Source: an uncultured Aquimarina sp.
GTDB lineage: Bacteria; Bacteroidota; Bacteroidia; Flavobacteriales; Flavobacteriaceae
Assembly: GCA_947500845.1 (NCBI GenBank)
Contig: CANMTP010000003.1
Location: 124,001 to 188,000, forward strand
DNA: 64,000 nucleotides
Reading direction: 5' to 3'
Below the pieces are notes generated by a model. That model did no database searches, was not told the origin of the DNA, and saw nothing but the letters and a program-made list of their open reading frames with translations. Made by a program: the position numbers and the translations under genes. Below, piece after piece: positions 3,391-14,638 of the stretch (position 1 is its first letter; each line of letters starts with the position of its first letter).

Positions 3391-3471
3391 CTGTCATCCT
3401 GAACTTGTTTCAGGATCTTTTTATCGTTTTACGTTATTCTAGATGGATCCCAGATCAAGTCTGGGATGACA
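3391..3471. repeat. inverted pair of REP-like palindromes (family A)
   Basis: Two palindromic units, 3391-3416 (CTGTCATCCTGAAC...CAGGATC) and 3446-3471 (GATCCCAGA...CTGGGATGACA), face each other across a 29-bp spacer. Each unit is itself a hairpin (GATCCTGAAAC/GTTTCAGGATC-like). The right unit overlaps the 3' end of hemD and supplies its stop codon at 3455-3457. Units beginning TGTCATCC are a common dispersed intergenic repeat of Bacteroidota; related ones lie at 18943-19090. Confidence 0.8.
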
Positions 3472-4552
3472 AATCTTGGTTAAAATATTTCACCGCTTGA
3501 ACAATAACATTCTCTACGGTAGGCTTGTTTGCTATTACAACATGCTCTGTATATTTTTTAGCTTCAGAAGCTGTTGTGTTTCCAATACAAAAAACGATAC
3601 TCCTGCCAATTGTATTCTCTTTAATATAGCTTTGAATTCCTGATGGACTAAAAAATAAAATTCCATCAAACGAGCGATTAAATTTCTTTGAATTTAAACT
3701 CGTTTTGTAGACTATTTGCTCTTTTAATGCTACTTTTTGATCTTTCAGAAGTTCTGGCAGCTCCTTTCTTCTTAAATTTCCGCAAAAAAACAAAAAAGAC
3801 TCGTTTTTATGCTTTTTTACTATGAAATTAGCCAAATCTGAAGCATTTAAAGCAGTTTTGATTACTTTTTTTCCATTTTCCTCTAAAAGTCTTTTTGTAT
3901 TTTCACCTACACAAAAACAATTTGAAACGTTTATTTTAGAATTTAAAACCGCTTTAATCGCATTTTTGCTCGTAAAGATCATATTTTGAATCTCGTCTTG
4001 CACATCAACATCCAACAATTCGATCTTAATAGCATCATACGCTACAAAACCAATCCCAGAATTAAGCAACAATTCTTTTTGAGCAGTTGTAAGTTTTTTG
4101 GTGGATAGAATAGAACAGTTCCTTCTCCCTTGAGGAAGAAGGTTAGGATGAGGGTGATACTCGGTATTACTCTCATCTTGTTGATTATTTATGTACGGCG
4201 GGACTTCTTCTTGGCTTTCTATATTATTTTGAATGCTTCTAAAAATAATCTCAGGATTTTCAAATACTACTTTATTTTCGAATCTAAGAACTGAATATCC
4301 CAAAGCTTCAAGCTGCAAATCTCTTAATTGGTCCTTTTCTTGTTGAAGAATATCACTATGGTATTCTCCATCCAATTCAATAATAAGTCGATTATCCATA
4401 TTTATGAAATCAACAATATATTTTTTTAATGGGTGTTGTCTTCTGAATTTCAAATTCTCAAATCTACGGTTACGAAGATGCTTCCAAAGTTTTGCTTCAG
4501 CTTTGGTTTGTTCTTTTCGAAGTGATCTTGATATTTGAGTTTTTACATTCAT
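3455..4552 (-). CDS. hemD: DUF559 (Vsr-like) domain fused to uroporphyrinogen-III synthase HemD
   Basis: A 365-residue fusion (ATG at 4552; a GTG at 4564 would add 4 repeat-encoded residues). Residues about 1-115 are a DUF559 domain of the Vsr-like restriction endonuclease fold, with VDF (D48), ELDGEYH (E59, D61, H65) and GYSVLRF. Residues 133-144 (HPHPNLLPQGRR) are translated from a palindromic repeat. Residues about 147-365 match the normal 219-residue HemD, starting SILSTKKLTTAQKELLL; HemD closes hydroxymethylbilane to uroporphyrinogen III. No ATG, GTG or TTG lies between the linker and the HemD core, so HemD has lost its own start and should be made only as a fusion. The C-terminal DLSSQT and stop also come from a repeat. 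Position between hemC and hemE supports the assignment. Whether the fusion is cleaved or functional is unknown. Confidence 0.88.
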   Translation of the reverse strand: MNVKTQISRSLRKEQTKAEAKLWKHLRNRRFENLKFRRQHPLKKYIVDFINMDNRLIIELDGEYHSDILQQEKDQLRDLQLEALGYSVLRFENKVVFENPEIIFRSIQNNIESQEEVPPYINNQQDESNTEYHPHPNLLPQGRRNCSILSTKKLTTAQKELLLNSGIGFVAYDAIKIELLDVDVQDEIQNMIFTSKNAIKAVLNSKINVSNCFCVGENTKRLLEENGKKVIKTALNASDLANFIVKKHKNESFLFFCGNLRRKELPELLKDQKVALKEQIVYKTSLNSKKFNRSFDGILFFSPSGIQSYIKENTIGRSIVFCIGNTTASEAKKYTEHVVIANKPTVENVIVQAVKYFNQDLSSQT

Positions 4553-4588
4553 GTAACCCCTCACCCTAGCCCTCTCCTCAAGGAGAGT
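4121..4588 (-). mobile_element. repeat-flanked DUF559 cassette inserted at the 5' end of hemD
   Basis: About 468 bp bounded by two inverted palindromic repeats: 4121-4157 (hairpin CCTTCTCCCTTGAGGAAGAAGG then TTAGGATGAGGGTGA) and 4557-4588 (CCCCTCACCCTAG then hairpin CCTCTCCTCAAGGAGAG). Hairpins point outward and the GAGGG/CCCTC motifs point inward, with the DUF559 reading frame filling the interior. The DUF559 start codon is 4 bp from the right repeat. The identical arrangement with a 15-bp interior occurs at 14520-14600. I infer a REPIN-like mobile unit carrying its own gene. No clear target duplication is visible. Confidence 0.65.
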
Positions 4589-14519: not shown

Positions 14520-14638
14520 CCTCTCCCTCCGGGAGAGGACTAAGGTGAGGGCTTTTGATATGAAAATCCCCTCATCCTGACCTTCTCCTCAAGGAGAAGG
14601 AACTCCAAAATGTTTATTAAAAAGATACTAGCACTTGA
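14480..14638. repeat. 12-bp inverted repeat bracketing the gene-less REPIN
   Basis: TCAAGTGCTAGT at 14480-14491 is exactly complementary to ACTAGCACTTGA at 14627-14638. The pair encloses the 81-bp palindromic element, giving a possible 159-bp nested unit. Confidence 0.7.
14520..14600. repeat. gene-less REPIN-like inverted pair (family B)
   Basis: Left unit: hairpin CCTCTCCCTCCGGGAGAGG (14520-14538) then ACTAAGGTGAGGGC. Right unit: CCCCTCATCCTGA then hairpin CCTTCTCCTCAAGGAGAAGG (14581-14600). The spacer is TTTTGATATGAAAAT. It has the same outward-hairpin geometry as the repeats around the DUF559 frame at 4121-4588. Confidence 0.8.

Follow-up and report, generated by a model that had tools for sequence, protein, structure and literature searches.

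An in-frame DUF559 nuclease cassette at hemD of an uncultured Aquimarina and its relatives in other conserved genes: a candidate homing-type element without recognised splicing

Described systems closest to the hemD locus

The survival of homing elements in conserved genes is explained by introns or inteins that splice them out, and I-Bth0305I is reviewed, in the accessible part of the same article, among the group I intron endonucleases (PMC3943268). As far as the available excerpts go, a DUF559-containing gene has been assigned to the EDxHD homing-endonuclease family (PMC9403480), and the Caulobacter DUF559 protein VsrA is treated as Vsr-like (PMC12907096). In view of the former assignment, the remark in the initial annotation of the window (the whole analysed stretch of 64,000 nt) that DUF559 is not generally described as a mobility protein is not entirely accurate. 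EDxHD homing endonucleases, represented by I-Bth0305I (3r3p), resemble DUF559 in fold, in a detectable sequence relation and in invariant acidic and histidine residues. Unlike I-Bth0305I, which is deposited as a mobile intron protein, the DUF559 cassettes described here stay translated in the host enzyme, and an intron or intein around the nuclease was detected neither by Rfam (6 loci) nor among the Pfam families listed (163 loci).

The WHO elements of yeasts show that homing into a conserved gene can do without protein splicing; the accessible sections state that the 3' end of FBA1 is replaced each time and that the elements belong to a yeast intein-zinc-finger family (PMC7282813). The DUF559 cassettes differ from them by their location inside or at the ends of many genes, by their palindromic ends and by a different nuclease. 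Rickettsia palindromic elements likewise consist of palindromic DNA translated in frame in unrelated metabolic genes, but they measure approximately 150 bp and encode a short conserved peptide, and the available portion of the text mentions no nuclease (PMC10969869). With REPINs and the RAYT-REP pairing, as portrayed in partially accessible sources, the cassettes share inverted palindromic pairs, many solo copies and the co-occurrence of repeat and nuclease gene by genome. RAYTs, however, are HUH (Y1) tyrosine transposases, whereas DUF559 is of the PD-(D/E)XK/EDxHD-type fold and thus no HUH enzyme, and the DUF559 cassettes differ from REPINs in being situated within coding frames and recurring at the same sites.

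E. coli YcjD (NCBIfam PRK09767, DUF559 domain-containing), encoded in 3365 of 5426 genomes, resembles the hemD cassette in having the CCCCTCACCCTAACCCTCTCC repeat on its 3' side, but is a free-standing gene. A clean empty ycjD allele was not found: A13, the sole strain without the gene whose sequence was followed as far as sapF, has an efflux operon in place of ycjD between fabI and sapF. In E. coli K-12 (L391, 1700-1950), a partial duplicate of the 3' end of ycjD together with the repeat seems, by eye, to be located beside the gene. The literature searched, which excludes most subscription papers, does not describe in-frame DUF559 cassettes of housekeeping genes, and the combination of an in-frame DUF559 nuclease, palindromic ends and many hosts was not found in those parts of it that were accessible.

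The hemD fusion in the window and empty sites in the genus

According to ORF and Pfam analysis, a DUF559 nuclease domain, a translated repeat linker and HemD occupy a single open frame on the minus strand (3455..4564), with a length of 369 aa if GTG 4564 is the start and of 365 aa if it is ATG 4552. Within this one protein, Pfam detects DUF559 (E 1.4e-35, residues 4-111) and HEM4/HemD (E 8.1e-27, residues 174-349), and the PF04480 match of the nuclease domain reaches 124.4 bits (G000:C3:128220-128543). Based on PF04480, the invariant residues and AlphaFold2, the EDxHD/Vsr-like nuclease domain extends over 4220..4543 (minus strand) and contains the conserved acidic and histidine residues. It is separated from HemD by an inner palindromic repeat (4121..4156, minus strand), which is translated as HPHPNLLPQGRR and turns its tag to the DUF559 side and its hairpin to the HemD side. 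An outer palindromic repeat (4557..4587, plus strand) composed of the tag CCCCTCACCCTAGCCC and the hairpin CTCTCCTCAAGGAGAG is located upstream of DUF559. Both repeats have a common tag of the CCCTCACCC type plus a small hairpin, and in the resulting arrangement H-T[DUF559]T-H the CCCTCACCC tags point to DUF559 and the hairpins point outward.

The HemD body (3458..4120, minus strand) is alignable to HemD of relatives. Due to the absence of any in-frame ATG, GTG or TTG from 4303 (inside DUF559) to 4072 (inside the HemD core), HemD is left without a usual start codon of its own. The GAGGGG of the outer-repeat tag, read on the coding strand, directly precedes ATG 4552 and may serve in ribosome binding. 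In three respects the initial annotation is borne out: the DUF559 frame runs without a stop into HemD, the repeat next to HemD is translated as a linker, and HemD has no usual start codon of its own. Its description of DUF559 as placed between two outward-pointing repeats is correct with regard to the repeats on both sides, but the orientation is amended to hairpins outward and tags inward.

The repeat CCCTCACCCTAACCCTCTCC (up to 3 mismatches) is found at 4135-4154 (minus strand) and 4558-4577 (plus strand), and occurs with four matches in the window versus a maximum of 0 in 100 shuffles, and with 13 matches in the genome of the window versus 0 for the reversed control. Since the two hairpins of the hemD cassette fold no better than shuffled sequences (z -1.47 and -0.60), it is the repeat itself and not its stability that constitutes the evidence. 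A solo inverted pair of the repeat without DUF559 is situated between two ORFs at 14520..14598 (no strand assigned, ends determined by eye) in the order H-T ... T-H; over the whole genome, the 13 matches include two solo pairs with starts 35 and 37 bp apart. The solo pair of the window has its elements in the same order as the hemD cassette, which resembles a REPIN carrying DUF559 at its centre.

DUF559 is absent from 25 of the 30 hemD loci read in the genus. In 19 of the 30, a gap of 23-28 bp separates the hemC stop from the hemD core, and the start is an in-frame TTG (ATG in two, by eye); in case of the carriers L004, L005, L006, and L030 this gap amounts to 465-610 bp. Among the other seven loci, L017 is a fifth carrier, L031 shows a gap of 78 bp, L028 a gap of 745 bp without DUF559, and L007, L029, L032, and L033 have a short gap as read from the printed sequence, outside the script measurement. 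Insert-free relatives hence exist in the genus, and the outcome named in the initial annotation as speaking against an insertion, i.e., that all relatives share the long hemD, did not come true. Across 66 genus genomes, DUF559 precedes hemD in six (G000, G013, G015, G017, G022, and G081), with the middle of the nuclease deleted in the copy of G022. The hemD gene of G013 (L030) contains a second in-frame insert of approximately 33 residues within HemD, perhaps another palindromic element.

In a hemC+hemD tree of 31 loci, the carrier state requires four changes, two of them forced by starred branches; carriers are mildly clustered, 17 of 500 shuffles requiring equally few changes. With a support of 100*, the carrier G017 groups as the sister of the empty G023. 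Among the genus copies, DUF559 dS and HemD dS are of the same order. The correlation of DUF559 and host distances at the HemD site (r 0.52 vs 0.80 for host segments) ranges in between the vertical and the non-vertical case. Due to this intermediate correlation, the similar dS values and the clustering of carriers, the hemD copy is not established as recent. Support for recurrent gain, as it appears from the comparisons below, covers LeuS and does not extend to hemD.

Nuclease, repeats and history across host genes

DUF559 with tag-plus-hairpin repeats occurs in frame, inside or at the ends of many genes, as observed for 163 long-frame loci, mostly of Bacteroidota. Host genes are those of LeuS, MetH, RecG, IleS, ValS, a UvrD-type helicase, methylmalonyl-CoA mutase, PurL, RecJ, HemF, and HisF as well as restriction genes. 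Within the genus, a PF04480 search located DUF559 mid-protein in MetH (four species), LeuS (two species) and IleS (one species). Searches were then made of the family, where 89 of 199 genomes have DUF559, and of the phylum, where at least 159 of 395 genomes have a match with E<=1e-20; the matches listed add RecG, HisD, HisF, HemF, RNase HI, restriction genes and a second LeuS site. Named genomes contain at least 519 relatives; 77 of the best 80 of these reside in frames of at least 230 codons, and the hosts are LeuS, UvrD-type (AddA-like) helicases, IleS, RecG, ValS, two MetH sites, a fused methylmalonyl-CoA mutase, acetyl-CoA synthetase, PurL, RecJ, and guanylate kinase.

Pfam confirmed DUF559 in all 163 loci with frames of at least 230 codons, the leading host domains being LeuS editing (46 + 17), B12-binding/MetH (1 + 15), UvrD_C (8 + 2), DEAD (4 + 7), and HEM4 (0 + 9). 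As most loci were chosen for long frames, 163 is no fraction of all DUF559 genes; fairer values are 32 of 100 (family search) and 12 of 57 (genus search) listed matches with E<=1e-20 in frames of at least 300, the window's own included in both. The host names AddA, IcmF, Acs, RecG, and HsdS represent our reading of Pfam matches and sequence. Left out of the counts were L169 (intein-like), L173-L175, L101 and L102 (DUF559-like matches that are weak or of another kind), L004, which duplicates the locus L001, and, for runs of N, L167, L208, and L242. The small cassette and the translational fusion that the initial annotation had proposed at the 5' end of hemD are supported, but the fusion is not singular: the same cassette type is found mid-gene in many conserved genes, and the 5' fusion is one case of a general in-frame invasion.

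The AlphaFold2 model of the window DUF559 domain (pLDDT 87.3, 42 sequences) matches the solved structures 3hrl (Z 15.0), I-Bth0305I (3r3p_A, Z 12.4, rmsd 3.0, 95 aligned) and Vsr (1cw0, Z 10.6), and in case of this mismatch-repair endonuclease the likeness is one of fold only. An hmmsearch profile recovered 3r3p with an E value of 2.4e-7, while a single-sequence phmmer search with the window domain found 3hrl and not 3r3p. E19, D48, E59, D61, H65, and D74 are invariant in the 42 DUF559 sequences, an invariance that is partly selected since two of the motifs were also search patterns; we presume that these residues correspond to the EDxHD letters. A role in anti-phage defence was rejected, as PADLOC returned only a weak DpdF match for the window domain (0.0068); the domain of the LeuS locus L256 was recorded as "homing endonuclease" HEase (1.2e-5). 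In the model of this LeuS protein (pLDDT 76.8, pTM 0.65, 26 sequences), DUF559 is predicted as a folded domain (326-436, pLDDT 73-86) flanked by the strands 290-301 and 451-456. Eight stretches of the model fall below a pLDDT of 50, and two of them, residues 304-319 and 440-448, coincide in part with the translated repeats.

Hairpin scores above control level were obtained for 48 of 158 mobile DUF559 loci compared to 12 of 20 vertical ones; as these scores fail to mark mobile DUF559, we relied on the similarity between both flanks. With the 95% level of 306 shifted controls as threshold, flank similarity, direct or inverted, is raised in 101 of 158 loci and in none of 20 genes of a vertically inherited DUF559 subfamily. 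For coding insertions alone, 94 of 162 are above the 95% level versus 888 within-ORF control positions (p 3e-44); loci with too little flank were left out of both tests. In the class of Ca. Marithrix, which we take to be the Gammaproteobacteria, this holds for 24 of 29 loci (p 8e-9). By type of locus, the signal is present in 43 of 61 free-standing and 54 of 87 in-frame cases. Paired flanks above the threshold are restricted to 6 of 15 LeuS and 1 of 7 RecG cassettes, and many cassettes apparently no longer have significant paired flanks. The orientation varies, with T-H[DUF559]H-T in MetH, LeuS and two hemD copies (by eye), and the translated linkers read PHPNLLPQGRR, PPKGG, SPTLSEGKG, PPSGARG, PSGEDLGGD and similar. 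In-frame repeat peptides without a nuclease occur at other positions of ileS of G015 (L081) and leuS of G024 (L103), with the sequences FKSPPTPKGG...TPPLGETEG and GKVLPLGEDLGGD.

The identical 21-mer CCCCTCACCCTAACCCTCTCC is contained in 7 of 395 loci, namely in DUF559 loci of the window genus (G017 in L005/L049, G015 in L006), of two genomes of the Marithrix class (L358, L364) and of E. coli (L391, L394). Of 185 genomes of the Marithrix class, 38 have DUF559 and 147 lack it; the repeat (up to 2 mismatches) occurs in 28 of the former and 24 of the latter (Fisher p 3.4e-11, kinship ignored), and this association holds in each third of genome size (p 0.04 to 2e-6). As no more than 3 of the 390 phylum-sample genomes contain the exact 20-mer, the repeats differ by lineage. 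Starting from the repeat, a single place out of 89 has DUF559 within 300 bp (0 of 84 on viral contigs, 1 of 5 in Bacteroidota), the places being derived from 80 of at least 120 stretches and 65 of the 89 having at least 700 bp on each side. The repeat therefore also exists apart from the cassette, the majority of the copies read being solo. Viewed from the DUF559 side, the link between repeat and nuclease gene proposed in the initial annotation is upheld, with flanks above controls in 101 of 158 and 94 of 162 loci instead of the absence of any association that it had named as a refutation; viewed from the repeat side, it is not.

In a DUF559 tree of 228 rows, the site label changes 40 times; shuffled labels change 140 times on average, and none of 200 shuffles came as low. 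HemD (11 rows, 98*), AddA, IcmF, and HemF each make up one side of a branch, and the 60 LeuS rows require 8 changes. The tree is built on 111 columns for the 228 rows with 92 of 224 inner branches open, and L017, L100, L168, and L170 were also left out. In this tree, the DUF559 lineages are sorted according to insertion site.

At the main LeuS site, DUF559 and host distances correlate with r 0.49, random host segments with r 0.93 (53 loci, without the decayed L168 and L170), with r 0.19 vs 0.75 without the ten most distant taxa, and with r of approximately 0.3 vs 0.85-0.88 if the two decayed copies are included; a faster evolution of DUF559 could partly account for these low values. The two Aequorivita-titled loci L234 and L240 are close in LeuS (5% difference in the protein segment, 82-85% of the leuS DNA in common), but their DUF559 domains differ by 41% in protein with 63.5% of the DNA in common, and their left repeats differ. 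The reverse applies to L238 and L244 (leuS DNA 71-74%, DUF559 DNA 88.1%). L257 and L234 have a near-identical right repeat and different nucleases, which suggests an exchange through the repeat. L280, titled Ca. Staskawiczbacteria (presumably Patescibacteria), carries a LeuS cassette at the main site although its host protein is 62-66% different from Bacteroidota LeuS; its DUF559 is 38-46% different among the 25 pairs listed, the mean over all pairs being 0.417. Cassette mobility at LeuS is well supported. In contrast, MetH (r 0.85 vs 0.90) and RecG (0.71 vs 0.80) copies look mostly vertical, and AddA (0.34 vs 0.67) is in between.

Within the genus, leuS was matched in one piece over the cassette site in 53 of 59 genomes with a match, and all 30 leuS loci read have a short loop there. 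The window genome's own leuS (L380, G000:C28:19500) contains in frame, at the recurrent site, a left repeat, a C-terminal stub of DUF559 and a right repeat, and the LeuS copies L168 and L170 have lost the catalytic motifs and clear repeats (by eye). DUF559 pairwise dN is far below dS, many dS values being near saturation, and the nuclease is under purifying selection. Homing elements pass through a cycle of gain, decay and loss, which the decay and the remnants seen here resemble by analogy. The leuS loop of L327, L328, L329, and L340 holds RIQNSEF(R/K)I and L381 another short insert, as if this loop accepted several kinds of repeat.

Possible origins and meaning of the cassettes

We consider the hemD insert, with a probability of roughly 0.6, to be a copy of a mobile, unspliced homing-type cassette, in which a DUF559 nuclease of EDxHD (Vsr-like) fold is bounded by tag-plus-hairpin ends that double as linkers, cleavage and homing being presumed steps. 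Such a cassette, without a recognised splicing device, would enter genes in frame or at their ends and stay in the protein, where the translated repeats would act as flexible linkers and the nuclease as a looped-out folded domain. The nuclease would cut cassette-free alleles, and perhaps the repeats too, whereupon repair would copy the cassette into the cut allele; in essential genes it may persist because a frame-breaking loss would be lethal. At hemD, the cassette would have replaced the native start codon, and HemD would now be made as a DUF559-HemD fusion. Since DUF559 lineages sort by site and the nearest solved structures include a homing endonuclease, a homing element is the better analogy than a REP transposase. 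The RAYT-REP-like tie envisaged initially agrees with the co-occurrence by genome, yet a homing element fits better.

Three other readings compete with that of a homing-type cassette. It is unlikely, if somewhat less so than the remaining two, that the repeats belong to an independent REP-type element with another transposase and that DUF559 is merely inserted or carried between them with another job, e.g., Vsr-like mismatch repair. Solo pairs in the window genome, the single DUF559 neighbour at 89 places of exact 20-mer copies, and the study of Caulobacter VsrA as a Vsr-like protein in the accessible part of the report (PMC12907096) are in agreement with it; the co-occurrence of repeat and DUF559 by genome (28 of 38 vs 24 of 147, kinship ignored) and the same 21-mer at DUF559 loci of the window genus, two genomes of the Marithrix class and E. 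coli are not, and recurrent same-site cassettes in essential genes are unexpected of a repair gene. Slightly more doubtful still are ordinary old domain fusions, in which DUF559 joined each host gene once in ancient times and descended vertically with many losses, the repeats being unrelated later additions. The MetH and RecG distances that follow the host, the placement of the HemD, AddA, IcmF, and HemF copies each on one side of a branch and the dS values of the same order for DUF559 and HemD in the genus would be expected from such a history. It is contradicted at LeuS by close hosts with strongly different cassettes and the reverse, and by a Staskawiczbacteria-titled cassette no further from Bacteroidota ones than their own average, and more generally by repeat flanks above controls and by the patchy presence in one genus, where a hemD carrier is sister to an empty species (100*).

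That the inserts are degenerate inteins or introns with unrecognised splicing, and the mature proteins of normal size, is very improbable. Recurrent sites in conserved genes are shared with inteins, and L169 (G213:C1:236312) looks by eye, at its C-terminal end (VVVHN|C), like a genuine intein with a DUF559-like nuclease inside. However, Rfam detected no intron in 6 loci, and Pfam listed no intein or Hint family for 163 inserts with flanks (25 of 32 families listed in one scan); on these grounds a self-splicing intron and an intein were set aside as improbable, and the inserts keep the frame as DUF559 plus linkers.

Returning to the homing-type cassette, a broader proposal, to which we give a little less than even odds, is that DUF559 cassettes form a widespread undescribed mobile class. 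Its members would be autonomous homing units with REP-like ends that invade essential genes in frame without splicing, their repeats being disordered linkers, that have homed repeatedly into one LeuS loop across genera and phyla, and whose nuclease-free derivatives are the solo repeats. The cassettes appear to persist in conserved genes without splicing, the nuclease domain being left in LeuS, MetH, IleS, RecG, and HemD. If true, this would show a simple way for essential enzymes to acquire inserted domains, provide many members of a "protein of unknown function" family with a candidate function, add a second nuclease tied to REP-like repeats, and reveal sites at which proteins naturally tolerate insertions. 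LeuS, MetH or HemD genes of unusual length may accordingly hold a selfish domain.
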